A stretch of 48,356 nt of DNA from a virus (IMGVR_UViG_3300027907_000006:1-48356), one strand, 5' to 3'. Positions 3,106 to 36,800 are shown, numbered from the stretch's first letter. The notes: generated by a model not told the origin, from the sequence alone. Numbers and translations: made by a program.

Positions 3106-3404
3106 CGCGAATCCTCTACGGGGCCGATCCCCTCCGCCCACACGCCGAAACCCAGCCGCGAGGCAAACGGGTTCGGCGTGCTTTCGTCTTTGCAGACGCT
3201 GGGCGAAGGGGCCGGCACTTCTTGTACTCCTGCAAGATCGCTCGGCGTCTGCTCTTCAGGTTTGTGGATGTGGCAGCTCGCGAAAATGCACAGGAGGAGG
3301 GTGACGTGCGGCGCGCGTCCTTCCACCGACAGCTCGCCCGGCGTGCGCTCCACGGCGCAGCCAGCGAGTAGCGGTAGCGAAGCGATGAGCGCCGCGACGT
3401 TCAT
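3102..3404 (-). CDS. Small lipoprotein, spanin candidate
   Basis: This 100-residue protein begins with a short hydrophobic signal ending in the lipobox LLAGC (cysteine 16), so signal peptidase II processing and outer-membrane anchoring are expected. A second hydrophobic stretch (VTLLLCIFA) lies near residue 35 and the rest is Pro-rich. Small lipoproteins beside terminase genes are often Rz1-like spanins that fuse inner and outer membrane during lysis, but the usual overlapping Rz partner is not visible. The start is coupled to the upstream stop by an ATGA overlap, and its end overlaps the terminase start. The lipobox is seen; the lysis role is inference. Confidence 0.6.
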   Translation of the reverse strand: MNVAALIASLPLLAGCAVERTPGELSVEGRAPHVTLLLCIFASCHIHKPEEQTPSDLAGVQEVPAPSPSVCKDESTPNPFASRLGFGVWAEGIGPVEDSR

Positions 3405-14155: not shown

Positions 14156-14334
14156 TCCGTCCCGCCCCCCTTCCCGCGTGATGCTGCGCCCTTGTGCGTC
14201 GCGATTGCAAATAAGTATGACTGACGCTTGTAGACTTCTGTCGATCCGTGCTAGAACCCCGGTTGACCGGGAGAGCTTTGCAGGTAGAAGACGCAAAGCA
14301 CGACCGGCACCTATCTACTTCAGGAGCTGAAAAC
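14156..14334 (+). promoter_or_regulatory. Leader and presumed promoter region of the rightward accessory operon
   Basis: No gene is seen here. A weak sigma70-like pair is TTGTGC (near 14183) with TATGAC 18 bases later. The transcribed leader would contain a hairpin GCTTTGC/GCAAAGC (about 14274-14299) and ends with the conserved CAGGAGCTGA leader at 14321-14330 before the first ATG at 14335. The promoter is a guess; the hairpin and leader are seen. Confidence 0.4.
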
Positions 14335-14514
14335 ATGTTGCTTACCCTTCTTGCCTGCGTTGTCGCTGGCCTCGTTCTGTCGCGTCCGCTCATCCGTGCC
14401 ATGCGCCGCGATGCCGCTGACCTGGGCGTGATCCGTCGCACTGACTACCTGCGCACCCGCCGCGCCTCGCGTCTCTCGCGCGTCTCCTCGAACTCCTTCG
14501 GGGTGCGTCTGTGA
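14335..14514 (+). CDS. Small single-span membrane protein, 59 aa
   Basis: The ATG follows CAGGAGCTGAAAAC. The N-terminal MLLTLLACVVAGLVLSRPLI is one hydrophobic helix, followed by a strongly basic cytoplasmic tail (RRTRRASRLSR). It opens the accessory operon and overlaps the next start by GTGA. It may be a membrane-targeted inhibitor or anchor; no family is recognised. Confidence 0.7.
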   Translation: MLLTLLACVVAGLVLSRPLIRAMRRDAADLGVIRRTDYLRTRRASRLSRVSSNSFGVRL

Positions 14515-15104
14515 GCGCCGCCGGTCTCCTTCAGTCCATCCCGGCGACCCCTCACAAGTGGAGCGGTGCCAAGACTCCGCCGGCCCTTGGCGAGCGCGTC
14601 ACGATCACCTTCAACGGCCTCGGCGCTGGCGTCGTGGTCGGCTTCAAAGTCGTTGAGGGCTACTTGGGCGTTGCGGTGAAGCTCGACAGTTCGCCCGAGT
14701 GGCGAACAAAGCAGGGCGTTGCCGCCGACGTGCCCGCCTTTGTCTTCGGTGCCGAGCTGGTAGAGCAACGCGCGCCGGCCGTCGAAGTTCTGACGCGCGC
14801 CCCGTGGAAGTTCGAGGGCTTCAAGGCTGGCCAGATCATCCGCGCCCGTGACTTCGAGGACCGAGCCGAGCGCGGCGCGTGCTACGTCGAGGGCCGCATT
14901 GACATGGTTTGTCCGGAAGGCTCCGACCGCTACCCCTACGCGCATTACAAGATCGTGCCGACGCTGCGCGTATGGAACGGCTCCGCATTGCGCGACGCGA
15001 TGACCGAGCCGCGCGAGGTTGTCATTGTCCCGATGGAAACGTCGATGGACTACGAGAACCGCGTGGAGCTGATCCCGGCCGGCTGGGGTTCCGTCACGGC
15101 TTGA
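14511..15104 (+). CDS. Hypothetical protein, 197 aa (GTG start)
   Basis: The GTG overlaps the preceding TGA (GTGA). The protein is soluble, with beta-like segments (RVTITFNGLGAGVVVGFKVVEGYLGVAVKL) and a C-terminal REVVIVPMETSMDYENRVELIPAG. The N-terminal half resembles a small beta-barrel. No catalytic motif is visible. It is translated with the membrane protein as the first unit of the operon. Confidence 0.75.
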   Translation: MSAAGLLQSIPATPHKWSGAKTPPALGERVTITFNGLGAGVVVGFKVVEGYLGVAVKLDSSPEWRTKQGVAADVPAFVFGAELVEQRAPAVEVLTRAPWKFEGFKAGQIIRARDFEDRAERGACYVEGRIDMVCPEGSDRYPYAHYKIVPTLRVWNGSALRDAMTEPREVVIVPMETSMDYENRVELIPAGWGSVTA

Positions 15105-15109
15105 GTCGT

Positions 15110-15147
15110 TTGACAGTCGCCGCCTAGCAATAGGCGGCTTCTGTGAA
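15110..15147 (+). ncRNA. Structured intercistronic RNA hairpin, copy A
   Basis: A two-tier hairpin lies between the first and second units: outer stem ACAG/CTGT (15113-15116 with 15141-15144), internal loop TC/TT, inner stem GCCGCCTA/TAGGCGGC (15119-15126 with 15131-15138) and a GCAA tetraloop. The flanks TTGACAGTC and TTCTGTGAA are identical in copy B at 16030-16070 while the inner stem differs with compensating changes, which supports a conserved RNA element. No match to a known ribozyme class is apparent. Confidence 0.75.
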
Positions 15148-15175
15148 CCGATTCACCACGACAGGAGCTGAGACC

Positions 15176-15505
15176 ATGCCCAAGACTGCAAGCCAACAAC
15201 GACAGGACCGCGAGCGCGCCATTGTGCGCGCCCTCATTCGCCACCTGAAACAGAACGGATGGAACGTGGACCGCGTGTATGACGGCGGCGACGAGGACGT
15301 TATCACCGGGACCGAGACCGAAGCCCTAGAGGCTGTCTTCGCGGTGGACGAATCAACGCTCTGGTTTAAGAACGCGGCCGGCAAGGATCACGGCGTCTAT
15401 CTAGTGTGCGGCAATGACTCCGACATTATCTCGGACTACAACTATTCCGAAGACCCCGCCGACACGTTCCGCACTGCGATGGAGGCTTACTGCGCGACGC
15501 TGTAG
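15176..15505 (+). CDS. Hypothetical acidic protein, 109 aa
   Basis: The ATG follows ACAGGAGCTGAGACC. The N-terminal 30 residues are basic and helical (RERAIVRALIRHLKQNGW) and the C-terminal two thirds are acidic (GGDEDVITGTETEALEAVFAVDES, GNDSDIISDYNYSEDPAD). An acidic, compact small early protein could be a DNA mimic, but that is only a possibility. It is a single-gene unit flanked by hairpins. Confidence 0.75.
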   Translation: MPKTASQQRQDRERAIVRALIRHLKQNGWNVDRVYDGGDEDVITGTETEALEAVFAVDESTLWFKNAAGKDHGVYLVCGNDSDIISDYNYSEDPADTFRTAMEAYCATL

Positions 15506-15511
15506 CGCGCC

Positions 15512-15558
15512 ACTTGATGCGCCTGGACATCCGGGCGCATCGGGGGGCGCACTTCCGC
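15512..15558 (+). ncRNA. Intercistronic hairpin C
   Basis: Between the 109-residue gene and the next is a strong hairpin with stem GATGCGCC/GGGCGCATC (about 15523-15530 with 15541-15549) and an outer GCGCC/GGCGC pairing. It does not share the conserved flanks of copies A and B and has no hammerhead core. No U-tract follows, so processing or stabilisation is more likely than termination. Confidence 0.5.
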
Positions 15559-15584
15559 GACCCGATTACAGGAGCTGAAATCAA

Positions 15585-15773
15585 ATGCAAAACGTAAAGA
15601 CCGAAGTCAAAGGCAACACGCTGACGATTACCGTGGACCTGTCGCAGCGTTGCGGCCCGTCGAGCACGGGCAAAACGATCATCGTCGCGAGCAGCAACGG
15701 TAGCGCCAAAGTCCCCGGACACGAGGCGATCAAGTTTGGCCTGAACGTCTACACGGGCCGGGGTGCGCAGTGA
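15585..15773 (+). CDS. Hypothetical protein, 62 aa
   Basis: The ATG follows ACAGGAGCTGAAATCAA. The sequence alternates beta-strand-like segments (NVKTEVKGNTLTITVDLSQ, GKTIIVASSNGSAKVPGH, IKFGLNVYTG), suggesting a small all-beta fold. The stop overlaps the next GTG (GTGA). No family is recognised with certainty. Confidence 0.7.
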   Translation: MQNVKTEVKGNTLTITVDLSQRCGPSSTGKTIIVASSNGSAKVPGHEAIKFGLNVYTGRGAQ

Positions 15774-16021
15774 GCCGCGCCCGTTGGGACTTGGCCAGCG
15801 TGCGCAAGGCGCGTGACGCGCACCTTCGGCGCGCACGCTTCGCGGCCCGCATGGTTCGCGAGACGCAAGGCGCAACGCGCGAAGTGTGGCGCGAGCATCG
15901 CCGGCAACACGTCAAGGCCGCGAGGCGCGAAAACTGGCTGCTGGTCGGCCAGTCGCGCGCCGTGTCGGCCTCGATGTTCTTCCGCAAGACGGCAGGCTTC
16001 CACGAGCGCGCCCGCGCCTAG
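15770..16021 (+). CDS. Highly basic protein, 83 aa (GTG start)
   Basis: GTG overlaps the upstream TGA. The product is rich in Arg and Ala and almost entirely helical (VRKARDAHLRRARFAARMVRE, TREVWREHRRQHVKAARRE), which suggests nucleic-acid binding. Translation coupling pairs it with the 62-residue beta protein, so they may form a complex. Confidence 0.65.
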   Translation: MSRARWDLASVRKARDAHLRRARFAARMVRETQGATREVWREHRRQHVKAARRENWLLVGQSRAVSASMFFRKTAGFHERARA

Positions 16022-16029
16022 CTAGTGGC

Positions 16030-16070
16030 TTGACAGTCGCCCGCGTGCCTCTGGCGCGGGCTTCTGTGAA
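16030..16070 (+). ncRNA. Structured intercistronic RNA hairpin, copy B
   Basis: This has the same architecture as copy A: outer stem ACAG/CTGT (16033-16036 with 16064-16067), internal loop TC/TT, and inner stem GCCCGCG/CGCGGGC (16039-16045 with 16055-16061) with a longer loop. Flanks TTGACAGTC and TTCTGTGAA are identical to copy A. It separates the third and fourth units. Confidence 0.75.
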
Positions 16071-16095
16071 TCCATTGACTACAACAGGAGCTGAA

Positions 16096-16728
16096 ATGTC
16101 TACGCGAGCAACTTACAGATTTGAGGCCGGCGACGTATCGCGCCGCGCGTCCGGGATGAGTCACGCGCCCGTCACCGTGTACATCCATCACGACGGCTAT
16201 CCGGCCGGCGCGGCCTGCTACTTCTGGAACATGCACCACGCGACGAGCTACGACCGCACGCCGCTGGTTTGTTTCATCCGCGCGAACGAGCGCGCCGAAG
16301 TGACCGAGGGCCACGAGGCGCACGGCGACACGGATTACAGGTACACGTTGCGCGGTACGTTCCTGACCGCACAGAAGCGCGGGCGCGGCCTGTATGACGC
16401 AACGACATGGGGCGGAATCTTCGCGGGCGAATATCACGAATTCATAAACCAATACGGGCGCGGCCAGTGGGATGAGTTCGAGACATTGCGCACGGTTCCG
16501 GTCAACTATTGCGAGGGTTACGGCAGCCGCACCGAACTACTCACGCGCTCGCAGATCGCGACGCGCATCACGACCGCACGCGAGGAGCTGGACGCCTACC
16601 GCGCCCGATGGCCGGACGCCATTGGCAACATTCGCGGCCATGAATCAACGCTGTCCATGTGGGAACGCGCGCTAAAGGATTACGAGCTACAGGAGGAGTT
16701 CGACCGCGCGAAGCCCGCGAACGCCTAA
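16096..16728 (+). CDS. Hypothetical protein, 210 aa
   Basis: The ATG follows ACAGGAGCTGAA with only three bases between. The N-terminal half is rich in His, Tyr and aromatic residues (VYIHHDGYPAGAACYFWNMHH), followed by a charged C-terminal helical part (TTAREELDAYRARWPDA, STLSMWERALKDYELQEEF). I do not recognise it. Its TAA stop provides the first bases of hammerhead ribozyme 1. Confidence 0.75.
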   Translation: MSTRATYRFEAGDVSRRASGMSHAPVTVYIHHDGYPAGAACYFWNMHHATSYDRTPLVCFIRANERAEVTEGHEAHGDTDYRYTLRGTFLTAQKRGRGLYDATTWGGIFAGEYHEFINQYGRGQWDEFETLRTVPVNYCEGYGSRTELLTRSQIATRITTAREELDAYRARWPDAIGNIRGHESTLSMWERALKDYELQEEFDRAKPANA

Positions 16729-16775
16729 CGCTCTGACGAGGGCGGAAGCCCGAAACGCCGCGAGGCGTCAGCGTT
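16727..16775 (+). ncRNA. Hammerhead ribozyme 1 (type I)
   Basis: All core positions are intact. Stem I AACGCT (16727-16732) pairs with AGCGTT (16770-16775). The CUGACGA core is 16733-16739. Stem II is GGGC/GCCC with a GGAA loop (16740-16751). GAA is 16752-16754 and A15.1 is 16755. Stem III is CGCC/GGCG with a GCGA loop (16756-16767). U16.1 and C17 (16768-16769) complete a GUC cleavage triplet, so cutting is predicted after 16769. Stem I is open, hence type I. Both loops are GNRA tetraloops. The upstream stop TAA (16726-16728) overlaps stem I. Cleavage leaves a 28-base leader before the next ATG. Confidence 0.93.
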
Positions 16776-16797
16776 TAACTAACAGGAGCTGAAACCG

Positions 16798-17328
16798 ATG
16801 AGCGAACACAGAAGAAGCGCGGAGGGTGTCTGCCAGCGTTGCGGACATGCGCCAGGACGAGACGCGCCGGCCGACGTATGCGCGCCCCGCGTGGTTTACA
16901 TCCCCTCGACACATACCGTGCAGGACTTCATTGCACCGAACGGCGTGACGTTTTACGGGCGCAAGACCTTGGAGCAATGCCAAGCCGAGCACGCGGACGC
17001 GGTTGTCATGGACGCGGACGAGGCTTACGCGCTCCATGAGGCACGCTTCCGCAACCCGGTCAGCGAAACGACCGAGGAGCGATTTAACTACGCGCTCGAA
17101 GTCCTACCGCCGGGCAAGTGGGGACATTACCAAGGGGGCGAGGCGTTCTATGTCACCGAGCGCATCACGGGAAATATCGTGAGCTGGTATTTCAAGGTGG
17201 CCGGCCGGTACTTCACGTTGGACGACAGCGCGGCCCCGCACCCGTCTACCTACCTCGAACGTGTGGCGGAGTTCATCAAGGCGAACCCCATCGCGGGGAA
17301 TATGACTTTCACGCGCGTAACGCACTGA
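16798..17328 (+). CDS. Hypothetical protein with N-terminal Cys cluster, 176 aa
   Basis: The ATG follows ACAGGAGCTGAAACCG, 28 bases after the predicted cut of ribozyme 1. Residues 12-28 (CQRCGHAP...C) may bind zinc. The middle is beta-like (TVQDFIAPNGVTFYGRKTLEQC) and the C-terminus carries WYFKVAGRYFTLDD. Its last codons and TGA stop (17326-17328) lie inside ribozyme 2. Function is unknown. Confidence 0.75.
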   Translation: MSEHRRSAEGVCQRCGHAPGRDAPADVCAPRVVYIPSTHTVQDFIAPNGVTFYGRKTLEQCQAEHADAVVMDADEAYALHEARFRNPVSETTEERFNYALEVLPPGKWGHYQGGEAFYVTERITGNIVSWYFKVAGRYFTLDDSAAPHPSTYLERVAEFIKANPIAGNMTFTRVTH

Positions 17329-17367
17329 CGAGGCCGGTAGGCCGAAACGGCGTGAGCCGTCTGCGTT
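17319..17367 (+). ncRNA. Hammerhead ribozyme 2 (type I)
   Basis: Stem I AACGCA (17319-17324) pairs with TGCGTT (17362-17367). The CUGACGA core is 17325-17331 and contains the upstream TGA stop. Stem II is GGCC/GGCC with a GGTA loop (17332-17343). GAA is 17344-17346 and A15.1 is 17347. Stem III is CGGC/GCCG with a GTGA loop (17348-17359). U16.1-C17 is 17360-17361, so cutting is predicted after 17361. Stems I, II and III all differ in sequence from ribozyme 1 but keep pairing, while the core is invariant. Cleavage leaves a 31-base leader before the next ATG. Confidence 0.93.
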
Positions 17368-17392
17368 TATCAATCAACAGGAGCTGAAGACA

Positions 17393-17758
17393 ATGGGAAC
17401 CTATTTCACACCGGGCGCGAGCAAGGCCGCGCTCGTCGCCGAACTGCTACGCGACAACAACGTAGAGGCGCACGACCTTTCCGGCAATCGCCTCTGGTGC
17501 CTGATTCCGAGCACGCGCGACGGCAAGCCGTGGAAATACGTTTGCCTGTTCAAACTGGTGGACGGCGGGCGCGATGGTTGGGGATACAAGCCGATCAGCG
17601 AAGACATGGGACCGTGCTACTACGATTGCCCGCTGTCATACGTGAAAGCCGTGGAACCGTTCGAGCCGCTGGCATACGCGCGTGAGTGGCGTGACAAGGT
17701 GTACTTGCACCACGGCCGCCAGCCGCCGAACAAAAACCAAGGGGAGATGTTCGCGTGA
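17393..17758 (+). CDS. Hypothetical protein, 121 aa
   Basis: The ATG follows ACAGGAGCTGAAGACA. The protein is soluble, with a helical N-terminus (SKAALVAELLRDNNVEAHDL) and a Trp/Tyr/Cys-rich centre (KYVCLFKLVDGGRDGWGYK, GPCYYDCPLSY). The C-terminus KNQGEMF resembles a short peptide tail. Its stop overlaps the next GTG. No family is recognised. Confidence 0.75.
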   Translation: MGTYFTPGASKAALVAELLRDNNVEAHDLSGNRLWCLIPSTRDGKPWKYVCLFKLVDGGRDGWGYKPISEDMGPCYYDCPLSYVKAVEPFEPLAYAREWRDKVYLHHGRQPPNKNQGEMFA

Positions 17759-17856
17759 TCGGCGGCACCCTGGCCGACCGTTACGCCATATACGTCGAAG
17801 CCATGCGCGCCCTTGGCCAGCCCGCGAAGACCTTCGATGAGTGGCTTAATTCCTAA
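17755..17856 (+). CDS. 33-residue peptide (GTG start)
   Basis: The GTG overlaps the upstream TGA (GTGA) behind AAGGGGAGATGTTC. The peptide is an amphipathic helix (LADRYAIYVEAMRALGQPAKTFDEWLNS), too short for most gene callers. Its TAA stop is the start of stem I of ribozyme 3, mirroring the arrangement at ribozyme 1. Confidence 0.6.
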   Translation: MIGGTLADRYAIYVEAMRALGQPAKTFDEWLNS

Positions 17857-17904
17857 CCGCTGACGAGTCCCGCGAGGGGACGAAACGCCGCGAGGCGTCC
17901 GGTT
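17855..17904 (+). ncRNA. Hammerhead ribozyme 3 (type I)
   Basis: Stem I AACCG (17855-17859) pairs with CGGTT (17900-17904). The CUGACGA core is 17860-17866. Stem II is GTCCC/GGGAC (17867-17871 with 17877-17881) with a 5-base GCGAG loop. GAA is 17882-17884 and A15.1 is 17885. Stem III is CGCC/GGCG with a GCGA loop (17886-17897). U16.1-C17 is 17898-17899, so cutting is predicted after 17899. The 19 bases from the GAAA strand through stem III to C17 are identical to ribozyme 1 (17881-17899 and 16751-16769), while stems I and II differ. Confidence 0.92.
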
Positions 17905-17913
17905 CAAATACCA

Positions 17914-17936
17914 GCCCGAAAATATATTTTTCAGGC
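17914..17936 (+). other. AT-rich hairpin downstream of ribozyme 3
   Basis: GCC and CGAAAAT pair with ATTTTTC and GGC around a small loop, with one mismatch, inside an otherwise GC-rich genome. It lies just 3' of ribozyme 3 and upstream of a possible internal promoter. It could be a weak terminator (the stem contains the T-run) or a stabiliser of the cleaved end. Confidence 0.45.
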
Positions 17937-17989
17937 CGAGCGCGCGGCCGGTTCATTGGAATCGGGGCGCGCGTCGTGGCACTAGCTAG

Positions 17990-18016
17990 GTGACTATCTA
18001 GTCACTTTGGTAAAAT
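17990..18016 (+). promoter_or_regulatory. Inverted repeat and possible internal promoter
   Basis: A perfect inverted repeat GTGACTA-TC-TAGTCAC (17990-18005) is followed by TGGTAAAAT, an extended -10-like box (18008-18016). This could be an operator-controlled promoter for the unit starting at 18070, explaining why the spacer after ribozyme 3 (213 bases) is much longer than the others. No good -35 box is seen, so the promoter call is tentative. Confidence 0.4.
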
Positions 18017-18069
18017 GCCCTTGTCGCGTCACTTCGGCGCGATTGTTGTTTACTATCACAGGAGCTGAA

Positions 18070-18336
18070 ATGACAGATGCGAAAATGGCGAAACTCGCGG
18101 CCGACCTTGAGCGCGCCGAGTCGAAGCTACTGCGGGCCATAACCCGCTGGATGAAACTCCGCCGGCAGGTAAAGGCGGCGGGCGTGAAACTCGACAAGGG
18201 GCTGGCCGAGAAGCTGGACAAATTGCCGGGCGCAATGGACGTGCGGAAAATGCCTATCACGCCGAAGCCGTGGCCGGGGAAAATCAAGGTGACGAATATC
18301 CCCGTGCGACAGCCGCGCAAATATCGGGGCAAGTAG
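18070..18336 (+). CDS. Small basic coiled-coil-like protein, 88 aa
   Basis: The ATG follows ACAGGAGCTGAA. The N-terminal 40 residues are a regular amphipathic helix (DAKMAKLAADLERAESKLLRAITRWMKLRRQV), followed by a Pro/Lys-rich tail (TPKPWPGKIKVTNIPVRQPRKYRGK). Dimerisation and nucleic-acid or ribosome binding are plausible; no family is recognised. Confidence 0.7.
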   Translation: MTDAKMAKLAADLERAESKLLRAITRWMKLRRQVKAAGVKLDKGLAEKLDKLPGAMDVRKMPITPKPWPGKIKVTNIPVRQPRKYRGK

Positions 18337-18342
18337 GCGCTT

Positions 18343-18375
18343 GCCGGTTGCGCATCCGAAGGGGTGCGCCTCCGG
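18343..18375 (+). ncRNA. Intercistronic hairpin D
   Basis: The spacer between the seventh and eighth units forms a stem GCGCATCC/GGGTGCGC around GAAG, extended by CCGG/CCGG. There is no hammerhead core and no U-tract. It continues the pattern in which every unit of this operon is separated by RNA structure. Confidence 0.5.
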
Positions 18376-18399
18376 GAATCACCAACAGGAGCTGAGAAC

Positions 18400-18690
18400 A
18401 TGCAACACGGAATCTGGATCGCGCGCCCCATCGAGGGGACTGCGCGCGTTGAAATCTTCGACGGCAAGGGCGAGCTGATCTGCGTCACCGACGACAGGCA
18501 CGCGGCCGATATTGTGGACGCCTACCGGGCCGTGCAAACGATCCACGCGATACTCGATGAGGAGGGCGAGGAGTGGGACAGCGAAACCACGAGCGCAGTC
18601 GCGGAGGTAATCACGGGCTTGGGCTTCACGATCCGCGACCCGAACGACGCGCCCTATGGCGGGTGGGATCACGATGGAGCGGTGACATGA
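18400..18690 (+). CDS. Hypothetical acidic protein, 96 aa
   Basis: The ATG follows ACAGGAGCTGAGAAC. The protein has a beta-like start (GIWIARPIEGTARVEIFDGKGELICV) and an acidic helical second half (ILDEEGEEWDSETTSAVAEVI). It is coupled to the next gene (ATGA). Function is unknown. Confidence 0.7.
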   Translation: MQHGIWIARPIEGTARVEIFDGKGELICVTDDRHAADIVDAYRAVQTIHAILDEEGEEWDSETTSAVAEVITGLGFTIRDPNDAPYGGWDHDGAVT

Positions 18691-18821
18691 TCTGGCTCGC
18701 GGCGGCGTTTCTCGGTGGCGCGGTCTACACGCACGGCACGACATCGAGGGTGTTGCTCGCCGTGTCGGCGTTCTGGCTGATCGCCGGCCTCTACGATATT
18801 TATCGCAAGGGTGGCAAATGA
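18687..18821 (+). CDS. Two-span membrane protein, 44 aa
   Basis: The ATG overlaps the upstream TGA (ATGA). MIWLAAAFLGGAVYTHG and RVLLAVSAFWLIAGLYDIY are two hydrophobic helices, with a basic C-terminus RKGGK. It is the last gene before a strong terminator. A holin-like or superinfection-exclusion role is conceivable, but not shown by the sequence. Confidence 0.65.
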   Translation: MIWLAAAFLGGAVYTHGTTSRVLLAVSAFWLIAGLYDIYRKGGK

Positions 18822-18863
18822 CGCGAGGCGCGGAGCCGTAACCGGGAACAACAACGGCGAGAT

Positions 18864-18904
18864 AAACCCCGCTCCGAGTAATCGGAAGCGGGGTTTACTT
18901 TTTC
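18864..18904 (+). terminator. Rho-independent terminator of the accessory operon
   Basis: A 10-bp stem AAACCCCGCT/AGCGGGGTTT encloses a smaller CCGA/TCGG hairpin and is followed by ACTTTTT on the + strand. It ends the ribozyme-containing operon. The reverse strand carries a T-run in the stem, so it may also stop the leftward gene at 18942. Confidence 0.85.
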
Positions 18905-18941
18905 GGGGTCTTCGCGATTCGCGAATTGAGAAGACTTCGAT

Positions 18942-19291: not shown

Positions 19292-19366
19292 TGGTGCAGC
19301 CAGTAGGGATTGAACCTACGACCCACGCCTTGTCGAGGCGTTGCTCTACCGCTGAGCTATGGCTGC
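19292..19366 (-). tRNA. tRNA, anticodon GAC (Val), with C at position 33
   Basis: A full cloverleaf is present: 7-bp acceptor stem GCAGCCA/TGGCTGC, D-arm GCTC-AGCGGTA-GAGC, 5-bp anticodon stem ACGCC/GGCGT, a 5-base variable region, T-arm GTAGG-TTCAATC-CCTAC, discriminator A and encoded CCA. The seven-base anticodon loop is TCGACAA, giving anticodon GAC. Position 33, nearly always U, is C. The gene is complete rather than a 3' fragment, so it is probably expressed, though it sits in the integration module and could overlap attP. Confidence 0.9.
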
Positions 19367-19750: not shown

Positions 19751-21292
19751 ATGAGACCGGGGAAAACAATTCTCACCGAAGCGTGGCTACGCAAGGTGAC
19801 TAAGGATCGCGACGAGAGCGCGTTAGGCGAGCACACCGATGGGGGCTGCCGAGGTTTGCGCATCTGGATCGCGAAAGATTTCGTGGTGTCCTTCTCGCTT
19901 CGGATGCGACTCAAGGGAGTCTCGAAGCGGTATCACGAGGAGCTGAAGCCGACCTATTGGAGTTCGGCGTTCACGCTCGCCCAGGCACGCGACGCCTGCA
20001 ACATCCGTCGAGGCGAGCTGCGCCGCGATGGCCTCAAGCCCAAGGTCGAGCCGTGCGCTTTGGGTGATGCGCTCCCGCAGTACGTCAAGGCGCGCATGGC
20101 CAAGGACGTGCAGGCGAGCCGCCGTCGCGCGGACCTCCCTGAGAAGTGGGACGAGCACATTGGCAACGCCGAGAAGCCCGGCCGGTTCATGAAAATCTTC
20201 AAGCCGTTGCTCGGGACGCTTTGCACCGACCTCAACCGCGATCACTTCATGGACTGCATGGACACCTACGGCGCGCAGTGGGCCGTCGAGCGCGAGAAGG
20301 AATGGGACAACCGGGTACTGCGCCCGATGATGGTGTGCGCCATGCCGTTCCTGAACTGGTGCGTGAAGCGCAAGGGTCTGAACTCCGATGCCGTCGAGGG
20401 GCTGGTGCCGGAGGACTACGACCCGGATGAGCGTTACCTGTTTCCCGGCGAGTGGCAGGCGTGCGCGCCGCACATCGACGCGCTCAAACACGACTGCGGG
20501 CTATTCGTTCGCTTCGTGCTGCTGACGTGCGTGCGCTCCGAGCAGGCGCTGTGCATGGAGTGGCAGGAGTGCGGGTGGGGCAATGGGTTCCTGAAATTCA
20601 CCGACGAGCAGGGCACCGAGCACGATGCGCTGATCTGGACCGTGCCGCGCGACAAGAAAGAGGGCGGCATGAAAATGCGCAAGAAGGGCAGCAAGCAGCT
20701 CCCCAACAGCGTGCTTATCACGGGCGATGCGCTGGTGATCCTCAAGCGACTGCGCGCGATCTGGGAGGAGGGCCAGAAGGATGCGAAGAACGCAGGCTAT
20801 GCCGGGGTGTTCACCAAGACGATGAAAAAGAAGTGGCGCACGGCGCGCACCGACATGCAGCGCGGCATCGAGGAGGAGGCCGGCTGCGCGCGGTGGGATC
20901 GCATGGCACTGCGCCACACGCACGCGACGTACCTGCGCCTCTTGGGTTGCCCGCCGGCACTGGTGTCGATGAGCATGGTTCACTCGGCCGGCAAGCAGCA
21001 CGTCGCGGGCGGCAAGGTGTTGGTCGCGGCCGATGTCACGACGCGCTACGTGGGGCCAGTCGCGGCGAAACGGTTCATGACGAATGATCCGCTGGCGGCG
21101 CTGGGTCCGTGGCACCTGAGACTTCACAAGCTGTTTCGGGACATGGAGCGCGGCAACGTGCATTCGGTGGAACTCATGTCGATCATCGCCGACCTTCGCA
21201 CGGATGCGAGCGCGGTCAACATGCGCGCCGAGCACGGGATCGCCGAGCGGTTCGTGGACGTGAAGCCGACACAGTTGGTCGCTGTCGGTTGA
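19751..21292 (+). CDS. int: Tyrosine recombinase (phage integrase)
   Basis: This 513-residue enzyme integrates and excises the phage genome at att sites. The N-terminal ~100 residues resemble the arm-binding domain of P4-type integrases (GLRIWIAKDFVVSFSLRMRL ... FTLAQARDACNIRRGEL), followed by a core-binding helical region. Catalytic residues visible are Arg262 (CVRSEQAL), a Lys in PRDKKEG near 302, Arg388 (LRHTHATYL), His411 (SMVHS) and the nucleophile Tyr433 (TTRYVGP). The usual His three residues before the second Arg is replaced by Met/Ala. The start follows ACAGGAGCTGAAAC and a terminator follows the gene. Confidence 0.92.
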   Translation: MRPGKTILTEAWLRKVTKDRDESALGEHTDGGCRGLRIWIAKDFVVSFSLRMRLKGVSKRYHEELKPTYWSSAFTLAQARDACNIRRGELRRDGLKPKVEPCALGDALPQYVKARMAKDVQASRRRADLPEKWDEHIGNAEKPGRFMKIFKPLLGTLCTDLNRDHFMDCMDTYGAQWAVEREKEWDNRVLRPMMVCAMPFLNWCVKRKGLNSDAVEGLVPEDYDPDERYLFPGEWQACAPHIDALKHDCGLFVRFVLLTCVRSEQALCMEWQECGWGNGFLKFTDEQGTEHDALIWTVPRDKKEGGMKMRKKGSKQLPNSVLITGDALVILKRLRAIWEEGQKDAKNAGYAGVFTKTMKKKWRTARTDMQRGIEEEAGCARWDRMALRHTHATYLRLLGCPPALVSMSMVHSAGKQHVAGGKVLVAADVTTRYVGPVAAKRFMTNDPLAALGPWHLRLHKLFRDMERGNVHSVELMSIIADLRTDASAVNMRAEHGIAERFVDVKPTQLVAVG

Positions 21293-30176: not shown

Positions 30177-30881
30177 CTACGAAACCGAAAGATTGAATGC
30201 AGTGAGGACGCCACCCAGGCCGACGACGTTGACCGTGCCGCCGGTCCCGCTCGCATCGAGGCCGAACACAGCATCGATTGCGCTGCGCACCTTGGCCGCG
30301 ATCTGCGAGCCGGTGTCGCCGATGAGAATGGCAATGGTGACTTGCTGCATCGGCCCGCCGTTGATTGCGTAGTCGAGCGTTACCGTGGCGTTGCGCGCGG
30401 CGGGTCCGCTAAACGCCGCGTTGCCGGTGTTGCCTACCAACGTGTTGCCGGTGACGGTGATCCCGGAGGGAGTCACGACGACGACGGCTGGCGGAGGGTT
30501 TGGGTTGTTCTGGTCGAGTCCCTGTGGCGGCGACTTGTGCCACGGGAACAGGTTGAGAAAGCTGGTGTTGTTCGCCGCGCGTCCGGGCCAAACGATCTGC
30601 GGGGTTGGCACGACCGGCGCGGTGACAACGACTATCGGCATTTCGCCGAGCGCCGCTTCGCCGCCATCGTCATACGTGGTGCCGAGTATCGCGGACCTGC
30701 CAACGCCGTATTCGCCGCCGAGTGAAGGCTTTGCGTAGGCTTTCGCGTCTGTGAACGCCGGATCGGTGAGCGTGGTGTCGTCCAATACGCCGCCCGGTGA
30801 TGCCGCGACGTAGGCGGCATCTACCAGCTCTGGCGGAAGTGCGGCGGTGTCGGCGATGTGAATCAGTTCAAGGTCTCTCAT
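30177..30881 (-). CDS. Virion-associated-type protein, 234 aa
   Basis: This shares the AxY(V/T)AxxPGG ... KAYAKPSLGGEYG pattern with the downstream 191-residue protein, followed by a Pro-rich linker and a beta-rich C-terminal domain (GITVTGNTLVGNTGNAAFSG, ATVTLDYAINGGPMQQVTIAI). The start overlaps the giant protein's stop (ATGA). A decoration or internal head protein is likely; no family is named with confidence. Confidence 0.65.
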   Translation of the reverse strand: MRDLELIHIADTAALPPELVDAAYVAASPGGVLDDTTLTDPAFTDAKAYAKPSLGGEYGVGRSAILGTTYDDGGEAALGEMPIVVVTAPVVPTPQIVWPGRAANNTSFLNLFPWHKSPPQGLDQNNPNPPPAVVVVTPSGITVTGNTLVGNTGNAAFSGPAARNATVTLDYAINGGPMQQVTIAILIGDTGSQIAAKVRSAIDAVFGLDASGTGGTVNVVGLGGVLTAFNLSVS

Positions 30882-33800
30882 TGTCCGTACCTCTTTTCTA
30901 TGTCCTTCTGTTTCTTGTCTGCGCGAGCCTTCTTGCTCGCCGCACCGGCTGGCGAGGGCGGACGGCGTTTCGCCGCTGCCGCTTCCTTGGCCTTCTCGTT
31001 CGGGGTCTTGCCCACGGTCAGGTTCGCGAAGTCCTGCGCCGTGTTGTACGAAGTTAAATATGTGAGCGCGGCCCAGCCGAGCGGGCCGCGCAGCCCAATC
31101 GATTCGAGCACGCGCGGCGCAGCGGAATTCACGATCAGCCGATAGAACGCACGGGCGCGTTTCCGTTCGGCGGTGCTCGTGTGGTCGTTCGGGTCCTGCG
31201 TGTCCGCGAAGCCGTCATAGATGTCCTGCGCGGAATCGACGTAGAAGCCCATCGCCGCGCCCATCGCGAGCGTCGAGAAGTCTTTCTGAAACTTCGATTT
31301 GAAAATCAGGTTGTACAGCGGCGAGTAGCCGCCCGTTCCGCCGGCCGCATCGACTGCATTGAAGAAGCCCTTAACCGTGGCCAGCTCTTCGACGCGCTTC
31401 TCGAATTTGTCACGATCCTGCAACCACTCGCGGAGCATCCGCGCCATCATCGTGCCGACCATGAGCGTTAAGAACGGAAGCACGAACTGCATCGTCGTCC
31501 GCATCTTCTGATCGGAGCGCTGGAGCCGCTTGCCGAATCGCGCGAGCACATGACGCTGGAAAAAGTAGTTGAAGCTCGAAATCGACATGATGAAACGGCC
31601 GACCGGGTTAGAGGACATGCGCGAGCGGTCGCTGGCCTTCGGGTGGCCGATGACCGTATCCACAAAGCGGTGCATCGCGACGATGTAATGCTGTTTGAGT
31701 TCGGCGTCTTCCGGTCGAAGCAGCGTGTTGATAGACATCATGTCTTGCTGCTGCTGCACGTATTTCGCAAAGCGCTCTTGCGATTTCGGCGGAACACCCA
31801 GCTCGCGGAATTCTTCCTCCGCAGCGGCGCGCTCTTTAGATCCCGCTTTCGAGTTCAAATACGTGTCGGCCCAGGTGCTGAGATAGCGTCCGCCGAGTTT
31901 CATCGTGCCGATGCGTGACGCGGAGGTGTACCCGTGAACACCAGTGAGTCGATAAAAGAAGTTCGAGATGACAGCGGTTTTGCCTTTGATGTCCTCTTGG
32001 AACATGCGGCTTTGAACGATGGTGTCTGTGCCGGCGGAGGAAATGAGGCCCATGATTTCGGCAATCTGACGCAGCTCCGCAGAGTTGCCACGGCGGATGA
32101 GCTGCTGGCCGGTGTAGAAGACGTTCATGAGGCCGTCGCGCACGCGGCCCGTGCGAATGGCGGCGCTCAGTGGTTCGGCGAGCTGCGCGAACAACGAGAA
32201 CGGCAGCAACGCATTCGTTGCCGTGTTGTAGAGCGCGTCGGTGACGGCTCGCAGCTTTTCGTTCACGTTCGGGCTGTAGGTGCCGGACATGATTTTCAAC
32301 AGCTCATCGACTGTCTTTAAGTCCGCAGGCTCCATGCCAGCGGCTAAGAACTGGTGGCGCATCTGCTCGTACTTCGCGTGATCGTTACCGAAACGTCGCG
32401 CGTAAGCGGCGCGCTTCGCGGCCATCGGAAAATACCGTTGCAAGCTGGAGAGCGGATTCTGATCGTAGAACTCCGACATCAGAATGTCGGCGATGGGGCC
32501 GAGTTTGCGGGCCTTCGTGTAGTTGGACGGCGGTGTCGATCGATCCGCCTGAAACATGTCCGCGACCTGACTGCTGTAGAGCCAGTCCTGCGCCGCGCGC
32601 AACGTGTCCACGTTTGCAAGCTCCGCAATCTCCGCGCGTACCGCGCCCATCTGCTTGTTGATTTCGTCCACCCGGTCTTGTCCGCGCTCCAGATTGCGCG
32701 TGACAGACTTCGCGACACGCAGCTCGTTCTCGAGCTGGCCCAGCTTCCTGTTGAGCGCACGCGCCTTGCGGTGTAGCTCGAAGTCATAGACCGACTGCGC
32801 CTGATCCACAAACCCCGCGCGGTTCGCGTTGATTGCTTCATCGTCCAGCGAGCGCGACATGTAGTTGCTTACGTAGCCCACGTCGATGCCGGCCTCTTGC
32901 TGGCGGTAGTAGACGGTGTTCATGAGCGTGCGGATTTCGTCCGCCGCGTTGAGCACACTGCCCGGCGCGGTCGAGGGCTTCGCAAACCCATCCATCTTCT
33001 TTTGTAGCGCCGCGATTTGAAACTTCAGCGCCTCGGCGGTTCGCACTTTGTTGCGGTCGCCTTTGGTGGCATCCAGCTTGTCTTGCAGGAATTCCTTGTA
33101 GTCCTGCATCTCCGCCAGCACCTGCGCCGTGGGCTTGGCTAACTCCTCGTACAGTTGCGCCATCTGCGCGTCATCGTCGGGGTCGAGCTTGTGCTTCGTC
33201 ACGATGTCGTGAAACTCGTTCAAGTCCGCGGTGGACTGCCGCACGAATTCCTGCTCCAGCGACTCCTCCTGCAATTCGCCGGAGCCAGGATCATCGGTAA
33301 GCAATCTCGCGAACGTGCGCAATCGGGCCGCGAGCCGCAGGTTCCCTGCTGCCTTGGCCTTCGCGATCATGCCGTTCAATCGCCCGCGTCCCGTGTAGAA
33401 CTGATAGAGAATCTGTTTGGCGCCCTCGGCAATCGCGACCGCGTGATCTTTGACTCCCGCGTATGCGGCCTTCGCGCTTTCGACGGGGCTTCCCAGCTTG
33501 GTGAACAAACGCCAGAGCGCGTCGATGTCACTCTTCGATGCGTTGAGCGCGGCCCGTACCGCGTGAACTTCGGCGTTGCGCTGCGCGGCCAACCACAGTT
33601 CCTTTTCCAGTCGGTTCGGCTGCGGAATCTTGGCGGCAACGGTTTCGCCCGCGAAATACTGATCGGCGGCGAGCGCGGCGAACAGGTCATCGAACGCGGC
33701 AAAGATGCGCGTGCGATCCGCCTCGTTCGGATAGACGAGCGCCATGATTTCGTCGGTGTTGTGGTTGTAGTAGTTGGGACTGCCGGCAAGGAATTCGACG

Positions 33801-36800
33801 CCGGCCTGCTGGCCTACGCGATTGCCAATCCAGCTCTCGCCAGCGCGGGCGAATAGTTCGGCCGGCAGCGAGAAATACGGTCGGCCCTGCATGAAGTCCA
33901 CGAATCGCGAATTCTGCGCCAGCGCGCTCGCCTTATTCGTGAGCGTGTCTTTCATGTCGGCGGCGATCTGCTTGAGCTTCGCTTCGAGTTTGGCGACTGC
34001 CGCCTTCTGCGTGGCGAGTGCCGCGACGGCTTTCTGATTGCCGGCCCGTAACTGCGCGGCGGCGCGACGCCGGCCAGCGGCGAGGAAGGGGTCCTTGCTG
34101 CGATCCGCATCCTTTTCGTATTCGACGGCTTTCGCCTCGCGCTCCTCGCGATTGTCGAAGACGCCTTGCGCCTTGCGCAGCTTCTGCCGCGCCTTGATCA
34201 GCGCCTCCTGCGTCTGCTGTCCGTCGAGCACGAGATTTCCGAGCTTCGTCATGCTCGCTTCATCGGTGAGCAGGATCGCGCGCATCACGCGAACGAATGC
34301 GTCGTGAACAGCCTTCGGCAGTTCTGGCAGCGGCGTGAGCGTGAGGTTCGACGCACCGGAGGCACCCAGCGCCTTTCGCTTCGTGAAGCGCATCAGTAGA
34401 TTGAGGTCGAGCGCGTGCAGCCATTCGTGCGTAAACGAATCCGCGCGGCGGGCGAGCGACAGCACGGAGGCACCGAAACCCTGATCGAACTTCCAACTGA
34501 ACATGCCGCGCGTGTCGGGGCTTTTGTTGATGGATTTGTCGAGTGACAACGTGAGGTCGCCGTTGAAGCCCATCGCTTCCTTCGGCTGTCCCATGACGCT
34601 CGCCTGCGTGTGCAGGTTGTTGTAGGCGTCGAGCATTGCATCGAGCGCTTCGCGGCTGTTGAGCGCGGGGTCGATCTTGATGCCTTTGAAATCGAAATAC
34701 GTTGCAAGGCGGCGCTGTGCGTATTCCAACTGCGCGCGGATCGGCATATTCCGCATCCGCTGCACGAATGCTTCCTGTCGAGGCGCGTATTCCTCCGGTG
34801 TTTCGCCGGGGTGCATCCCGCCGTGAAGATCGCGCCACATCGAGTCGTACTGCGATTCGCGCAATTCGCTCTCGCGCTTCGGGGCGACTTCCGCCTGTCG
34901 TTCGCTTTCGATCTTCGCCGCAATCTCGTCGGCCTTGCGTTGGCCGATGATCTGCAATGGATCGGTGGCGGTGTTCTTGCCGGGGATGTTCGGCCCGCGT
35001 GGCACGGGGCCAGTCTTGCCGGCGAGCTTGGAGTCGCTGAGGGTGCCCGTGTCGTCGTAGGGAGTTTCCTCGCCATACGAAACGTCTTCGCCGGTCTGCT
35101 CCTCGTCCTCCGTCGCAGCCGTGGTGCCCACATCTTCATCGAGGTCGGCCATTTCGTCCTGGCCGGCGGCGGGTTCCTCGAACTGCTGTTCCTGTTCGGC
35201 TACGACTTTGCGAAGCCAGTCGAGCGCATCAAAGGAACGAATGTCGATGGGCGGCTTCATGCCGAGCGCCGCTGCGTATCCGACTAGATAGCCCTGTACG
35301 GGGTTGAAGCCATGCGGGCGCATGTCTGCGGTCGGAAGCATTTTCTGCGCCAGCACCGGGTCGATGGGCTTGCCGGCCTTGGCGTCCTGCCAGCCCTTGA
35401 AGATTTCGCCGGCTCCGCCTGACTCGGGGTGAACGTCTTTCGAGATGCGCTTGAATTCGGGGTCAGTCTTCTTGAGTTTGCGAAACTCGCGGACATCGGC
35501 CTCGCGCTGACGCGAGGCTTCCTCCTGCTCGCGCTCTAACTCGGCTTCTTCGGCGGTGGCCCGTGCTTCAGCATCGCTCTCGACCCCGCTCTCGTCAGGT
35601 CCGGCTGATTGTGTTTCTTCCCGGCTGTTCTCATCGCTTGACCCAGAAGATACGGAGCCAGATGGTTTTCCTTGGGCGGTGAAGAGTCCTTGCTGGGCTT
35701 TTGCGGCGGTTTCGGCTTCTCGCTCACTGCGTTGCTCCTGTGTGCGTCGTCCGGCGTTGAGTTTAGCGAGTTGCGCCGCCGGGTCGAGCTTCGGTATGGC
35801 CTCGGCTTCACCAAATAGTCCGCCGCCGGCCTGTTCGGCGGTATATCCCTGCGCCAGCTTCAGATATTCATTAAGGGTCGTGCCGATTGCGCCGCCCGTG
35901 CGCAGACGCTTTGCATTGCCGCGACCGTCGAAGCTGTAGAAGGTCTCGATGAGCTGCTTAACCACCGGGTCCTTCGGGTTGAGCATGTCTTCGGTCTTGA
36001 GCCAGTTGGAGATTCCACCTGGGCCTTCAACGCTGCGCACCACTTCGATTGCTTCGGCGAGCTTGCCGCCAATGTCAGCCTCTTCCTGAATGCGCCCGGC
36101 GGCGATGTCCTCGCGCAGTTTGGCGAACGGCCCGGCGAACCGGACCAACGTATTAATGAGTGTCTGTGCGTCGGAGCTGGTGGACTCCACGGCGCGACGG
36201 ATCGCGGCGTCGCCGGCCGGCGTGCCTCCATACGCTTTTTGGAGGAGGGCGGCCTTGGCGCGAGTAACAGCGGCGGCGCTCGTCTTGCCGTCCGCGTCCA
36301 TCAACTCGCCTCGTTCTGCTACCGGGAACTTGCTGACGAAAGCGGTCACGAATTTCTGGCCGGCCGGTTTGCTGAGGTCGAATCCTTCATCCATGTCTTC
36401 GGGCAATTTCGCCATGACATCGGGCGTCAACGCATCCTGATCCACCTTCGCCTGTTCGCTCGCGGACATGCGACTCACGGCGGTCTTGTTCGCTTCCTTC
36501 GCGAACTTCACGCGCTCCGCGTCAGTCATCGGCGTCGTGCGACGACGGACGAGCACGGGGTTGCGCATCTGACTCACGTCCTGGCCGGACTGAGCCGCCA
36601 CCATGTCGCGATACTTCTGCGCACGCTCCGGATCGCGTGAGTACATCTGTCGCAGTGCCATCACGCGCCCATTGCCTGACTCCACATTCTCATCGTCGCT
36701 GCCGATGATGGGAGCGCCGTGTTCGGCGTGGGGGCTTGGGCCTAACAAGTCTGGATCGATGCTGCCGCCCATCTTCGACACTTGCTCTTGACTCGAAACG

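Follow-up and report, generated by a model that had tools for sequence, protein, structure and literature searches.

The accessory operon at positions 14335-18821 (plus strand) of IMGVR_UViG_3300027907_000006:1-48356, a viral stretch of 48,356 bases referred to here in its entirety as the window, consists of eight translation units, and every one of the seven boundaries between them holds an RNA structure: three carry a complete type I hammerhead ribozyme and four carry a long hairpin with mismatches, here called a rod. This arrangement is likely to reflect the processing of a single transcript into gene-sized mRNAs, by self-cleavage at the three hammerhead boundaries and probably by RNase III at the other four. 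Since the window encodes a terminase, a RecE-like exonuclease, RecT, a Cro/CI-type regulator and an integrase, its source is probably a temperate tailed phage. Related records, among them R1 (G001) and the genomes G2, G3, G4, G5 and G7, supply the comparative evidence for this interpretation.

The hammerheads HH1 (16727-16775), HH2 (17319-17367) and HH3 (17855-17904) all lie on the plus strand, and each bears CUGACGA, GAA, the A15.1-U16.1 pair and a GUC triplet, with stem I open and stems II and III closed. The type I core (C3-U-G-A-N-G-A9, G12-A-A14, A15.1-U16.1 and H17) is present in all three copies, and the three-helix layout of the type is seen both in minimum-free-energy folds and by covariation. 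A motif-plus-pairing scan in which every hit had to show the core, A15.1-U16.1 and no stem shorter than 3 bp was run on both strands of the 48,356 bases and returned exactly these three copies, against a chance expectation of 0.0025 hammerheads per strand in first-order Markov sequences, and the minimum-free-energy fold of each minimal segment (49-52 nt) is the hammerhead. The original prediction, made from the DNA sequence alone, had placed three full-core type I hammerheads here, and the scan, the folds and the low chance expectation bear it out.

Rfam, whose Hammerhead_1 model had been suggested as a check, returned no hammerhead from the window at the curated gathering score, only a tRNA. 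The best match was HH3, with 26.5 of the 34 bits for Hammerhead_1 (E 5.9e-6 for the record); below the gathering score HH2 gave a weak match to the type III model only, and HH1 was not among the Rfam matches even there. The shortfall is likely a consequence of the short stems and of a stem I that has no internal loop. The gathering score is a threshold for searching and not a biochemical requirement, and the core and helices of the type are in place. The stem II loops are GNRA-like or larger, with recurrent tails, and a loop-loop or pseudoknot contact between stem I and stem II is uncertain. HH1, HH2 and HH3 are real hammerheads and very probably work as ribozymes.

Comparison among copies reinforces the structural assignment. 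A MAFFT alignment of seven hammerheads places standard pairs in 98.1% of the pair cells, compared with 74.8% after shuffling, and holds 19 changes on both sides of a pair compared with 5.7 in the shuffles; 8 of the 15 pairs change on both sides, and in slid controls pairing falls to about 30%. A covariance model built from seven hammerheads and used to search the related records found 21 copies in seven records (three in the window, four in R1, three in G2, two in G3, one in G4, seven in G5 and one in G7), and none in eight other related records, all of them fragments or distant. The covariation also holds with all 21 copies, in an alignment that was fitted to the model. The claim that the stems differ while pairing is preserved is thus upheld, and the comparison of spacers in related phages that the original prediction recommended finds hammerheads in six related records, with stems rewritten by compensatory changes. 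Loss of core bases from all relatives, named there as evidence that would tell against the ribozymes, has not occurred: the whole core is kept in divergent relatives.

The distance from the hammerheads to the genes that follow is also constrained. Cleavage is predicted after positions 16769, 17361 and 17899, and would leave leaders of 28 nt after HH1 and 31 nt after HH2, and 170 nt before the next start after HH3; across the 21 copies, the cleavage site lies 21-34 nt from the next start in 18, and the three exceptions (94, 170 and 171 nt) all stand 5' of genes of one family, MTDAKMAK. The short 5' leaders foreseen in the original prediction therefore fit HH1 and HH2 and not HH3. The gap after HH3 (17905-18069) contains two hairpins, one A+T-rich and one small, as well as a -10-like TAAAAT; similarly long gaps occur 5' of the MTDAKMAK family in G2 and G5, with TATAAT in that of G5, and an internal promoter in the gap after HH3 is possible.

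The remaining four boundaries hold rods on the plus strand, and hairpins reported earlier at 15110, 15512, 16030 and 18343 proved real in comparison with shuffled sequence. Rod 1 (15102-15155; shuffle z -5.5) starts at a stop codon and has homologous rods in relatives; rod 2 (15504-15553; z -5.2) is of an A.G mismatch type and precedes the gene of the MQNVKTE family, before which rods resembling it also stand in R1, G2 and G3; rod 3 (approximately 16022-16078; z -4.1) and rod 4 (18341-18378; z -2.6) share the architecture of rod 1. This architecture, also found in relatives, comprises a 4-bp helix, a UC/UU-type internal loop, a G.G mismatch and UU/AA. In five rods, those at 15102, 16022 and 18341 of the window and those standing before position 2657 of R1 and position 3213 of G3, the order is UUG, 4 bp, U(C/U), inner helix, (U/C)U, 4 bp and GAA, and the 4-bp helices occur in the compensating forms ACAG/CUGU, ACGG/CCGU and CCGG/CCGG. 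Across seven genomes a folded stretch of rod contains 19-29 pairs, interrupted at regular intervals by 1x1 or 2x2 mismatches, and the mean shuffle z of the rods is about -4.6, compared with -0.15 for random stretches of the same genomes.

An intergenic helix of about two turns interrupted by mismatches or an internal loop is characteristic of RNase III sites, and all four rods of the window have this form: each folded stretch contains 19-26 pairs, and in most rods mismatches recur regularly. By analogy with such sites, the rods are probably cut by the host RNase III. Intrinsic termination was rejected as their function because no U run follows them and they lie inside the operon, and membership of a known Rfam family was rejected as well, the matches being at chance level (int-alpA, 18.1 bits, E 3.6). 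Contigs that carry a homologue of P0001, the product of unit 4 (L004-L037), yielded no hammerhead in a strict scan, and in three of them (L016, L028 and L033) a short GGGGCUUCGGCCCC hairpin lies between genes.

The two kinds of element replace one another between relatives. In seven genomes 21 hammerheads and 25 hairpins, by our own tally, take up 46 of the roughly 47 unit boundaries. Genes of the MSTRATY family are followed by a hammerhead in the window, R1 and G3 and by a rod in G4, and genes of the MTDAKMAK family by a rod in the window (rod 4) and by a hammerhead in G2 and G5. Because the 3' boundary of these two families holds either element depending on the relative, hammerhead and rod look like interchangeable spacers, and their exchange in related phages suggests that both serve to cut one long message.

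Each unit of the operon, moreover, is preceded by the same kind of leader. The starts at 14335, 15176, 15585, 16096, 16798, 17393, 18070 and 18400 each follow a leader of the form CAGGAGCTGA, of which the window has 12 near-matches against 0.35 expected, eight of them before operon units; the eight translation units proposed originally are confirmed by these eight leaders, one before each. The form found before most operon genes is specific to the phage (CAGGAGCTGAAA in the window, TGGAGCTGTA in R1 and CTGTAGGAG in G4). This phage-specific leader (14321-18397 in the window; L211-L216 in relatives) is present whether a hammerhead or a rod comes before it.

Serial type I hammerheads are numerous in IMG/VR. 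Two pattern scans of IMG/VR gave at least 120 matches each, and a strict rescan of the matches listed found at least 33 same-strand type I arrays of three or more copies, with up to nine copies in one array; some of the arrays come from related phages, and the counts are therefore not fully independent. The longest lie in unrelated phage contigs (nine copies in L151, eight in L097 and seven each in L050 and L139). In 136/169 and 135/145 of the hammerheads listed an upstream open reading frame (ORF) stops between -45 and +10 relative to the core, compared with 27-29% at random, and in 38% and 54% of the matches listed a start with a ribosome-binding motif comes 15-45 nt downstream of the cut, compared with 7-8%. 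Conservation of stem I is 0.71-0.80 within arrays and 0.30-0.38 between arrays among the matches listed (L042-L161 and L218 onward). Stems II and III are less conserved within arrays, stem I exceeding stem III in 27 of the 33 arrays listed, whereas the comparison for stem II is biased by the search pattern. It follows from the conservation of stem I that the ribozymes of one phage tend to share one 5' leader, for which selection on the leader, pairing in trans or copying are possible causes. The idea that all array phages have hairpin spacers was considered and rejected: the signal is weak, with hairpins in 17% of gaps and in 4% of controls. Hammerhead-like copies with an extra U between A9 and stem II recur in several phages, namely in L003 (7473-7529), L139 (10924), L109 and L056, and on the array strand of L122 (2423-2485) a hammerhead-like spacer has the core CCGAUGA instead of CUGAUGA and is perhaps a decayed or variant copy.

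In the mechanism proposed here, a single RNA would cover the small accessory genes of the phage, beginning at a promoter near 14230 and ending at a terminator at 18863-18906, two ends that are weakly supported. The type I hammerheads would fold and cut themselves after 16769, 17361 and 17899. At each cut the stem II and stem III hairpins would close the 3' end of the upstream message, which would bear a 2',3'-cyclic phosphate, and the downstream message would receive a 5'-OH end, a leader of the predicted length and the common ribosome-binding motif. At the four rod boundaries the same task would probably fall to the host RNase III, or the rods may act as barriers. Ribozyme and rod spacers would in this way give each gene standard message ends and make genes easy to gain, lose and reorder, to the possible benefit of the phage. 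The earlier proposal that the RNA cuts itself into units accordingly needs to be narrowed: self-cleavage is predicted at three boundaries, where the anatomy and the comparative data fit it, and cutting at the other four would depend on a host enzyme, unless these act as barriers. That the same holds for phages in general, with hammerheads and RNase III hairpins exchangeable in the making of gene-sized mRNAs and a shared stem I setting the phage-specific 5' leader, is a tentative extension that is rather less likely to hold than to fail.

Several points weigh against processing as the explanation. Cleavage of the HH1, HH2 and HH3 RNAs is a prediction from sequence, and cutting of the rods by RNase III is assigned by resemblance. 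Stem I is without an internal loop, making it uncertain that the tertiary contacts needed at low magnesium can form, and wider folds do not always favour the ribozyme, as is seen for HH2. Among other array phages, moreover, rods are not the general rule. In the cases of exchange, finally, the downstream gene differs and the boundaries match on one side only; the exchange therefore goes with the 3' flank of the gene upstream.

Among other explanations, one would have hammerheads and rods act as insulators that mainly block ribosome read-through, translational coupling or misfolding and standardise the leader, as the synthetic RiboJ insulator does, with cutting, if any, important only for leader uniformity. 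Both elements begin at or just after a stop codon and end shortly before the common ribosome-binding motif, as this would require, but simple hairpins would suffice for the purpose, and divergent relatives retain the complete catalytic core with rewritten stems; insulation of this kind is unlikely. It is improbable, too, that the hammerheads form a translation-coupled switch, in which ribosomes finishing the upstream gene run into stem I or the core, thereby delaying the cut until upstream translation stops. Of the phage hammerheads among the matches listed, 104/169 and 107/145 do have a stop codon inside stem I or the core, and the UGA of the HH2 core is itself the stop of unit 5. Compact genomes nevertheless yield such overlaps anyway, and the core always has UGA in one frame; use of the core UGA as a special stop signal was rejected, as the share of hammerheads with a core-UGA stop among the matches listed (45/169 and 32/145) is not above the one third expected.

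The fate of the cut ends raises a further alternative, namely that pieces between two hammerheads are joined by the ribozyme or a host ligase into circular or recombined mRNAs. The 5'-OH and cyclic-phosphate ends expected of hammerheads would permit this, and the stem I common to many arrays would allow halves to pair in trans, but spliced or circular products were sought by Perreault et al. and none were found (PMC3088659), and the boundaries here are mostly single hammerheads or rods, leaving few genes flanked on both sides; joining of this kind is very unlikely. Equally hard to credit is the notion that the hammerheads are passive or selfish repeats, propagating in phage genomes with little use to the phage. 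Hammerheads are indeed common in selfish elements (PMC3088659) and stem I is similar within arrays, yet no repeat element surrounds the hammerheads, their position at gene boundaries and their strand are strict, every stem has compensatory change, and they exchange with unrelated rods. Processing of one transcript by hammerheads and, probably, RNase III accommodates these features best and is retained as the likely explanation.

The genes of the operon are small. Unit 1 (14335-15104) consists of two overlapping ORFs of 59 and 197 aa and unit 2 (15176-15505) of one of 109 aa, none of them with a Pfam match. Unit 3 (15585-16021) contains overlapping genes of 62 aa (MQNVKTE family) and 83 aa, unit 4 (16096-16728) the 210-aa P0001 of the MSTRATY family, and unit 5 (16798-17328) the 176-aa P0002, which as a probe matched only in the R1 phage. 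Unit 6 (17393-17856) encodes the 121-aa P0003 (phrog_21047), matched as a probe in R1 and two distant relatives, together with an overlapping 33-aa frame, and its counterpart in G4 is a single fused gene. Unit 7 (18070-18336) is the 88-aa gene of the MTDAKMAK family, and unit 8 (18400-18821) holds overlapping genes of 96 and 44 aa; all eight units are on the plus strand.

Upstream of the operon, a possible promoter (14228-14257, plus strand; TTGTAG-N18-TAGAAC with TGC before the second hexamer) was recognized by eye and by pattern match in the window and R1, and a sequence similar to it also stands 5' of the first gene in G2, G3 and G4. It is considered weak because a simple sigma-70 scan does not report it. 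Downstream, a likely intrinsic terminator (18863-18906, plus strand; AAACCCCGC...GCGGGGTTTACTTTTT) is kept in R1; a simple terminator scan, for which its loop is too long, did not pick it up. Beyond it, a tRNA-Val (GAC) gene (19292-19366, minus strand) adjoins the integrase gene (19751-21292, plus strand), a pair that could mark the attachment site, and parts of a 2802-aa ORF (30878-39286, minus strand) match phage virion protein families. A search of IMG/VR with the terminase gave 16 near relatives (78-100% identity). By DNA similarity no named phage was found to be related to the operon, to the structural half or to three other arrays, and no host was confirmed when P0001 or the terminase was sought in bacterial genomes.

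The role of bacterial and phage hammerheads has been open since their discovery in 2011: a 2017 review still lists that of the prokaryotic hammerheads as an open question (PMC6155905), and a 2023 paper describes the reason for ribozyme clustering as unknown (PMC10085705). A reading with exchangeable boundaries and a shared leader, if true, would answer what many phage hammerheads are for. The swap of hammerhead and long hairpin after the same gene, at a fixed distance from the next, provides comparative evidence from nature for either mRNA processing or insulation, for which this phage group offers a compact test system, and the positional rules (a stop in the ribozyme, a leader of 15-45 nt and a shared stem I) are measurable predictions for many phages. 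No description of the exchange or of the shared stem I was found in the literature searched, outside which most subscription papers lay.

The spacers also constitute ready-made natural insulators for the building of operons. In synthetic insulators of the RiboJ type a hammerhead is placed before a gene to give a fixed leader; those of the window are natural and serial, and every copy differs in sequence. The rods, in turn, resemble the RNase III sites of T7, whose polycistronic early RNA is cut between genes into mono- and dicistronic mRNAs; unlike T7, which uses the host enzyme only, the window has three boundaries of self-cutting RNA, and the action of RNase III on its rods is proposed by analogy. 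A phage-specific leader repeated before many small non-structural genes recalls the start-associated and extended start-associated sequences of Cluster K mycobacteriophages, about half of which have an inverted repeat upstream, but no ribozymes are reported there and the leader and hairpin sequences differ (PMC3203893). The closest precedent for serial hammerheads is the work of Perreault et al. (2011; PMC3088659), who reported clustered hammerheads around single prophage genes, proposed that transcripts are processed into operon- or gene-length mRNAs, found three serial arrays active in vitro and a triple array active in E. coli, and noted a halovirus transcript whose 5' end maps within 3 nucleotides of a hammerhead cleavage site. 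Given that report, the arrangement described here is known in kind, and with many further arrays in IMG/VR the novelty claimed for serial type I hammerheads between phage cistrons does not stand. As in those arrays, such as the triple array around ardA of Agrobacterium tumefaciens, several coding-strand hammerheads flank single genes of a phage operon in the window and its relatives; unlike them, each boundary of this operon is occupied by one of two elements, hammerhead or rod, which replace one another between relatives, and the genes they separate are not ardA.

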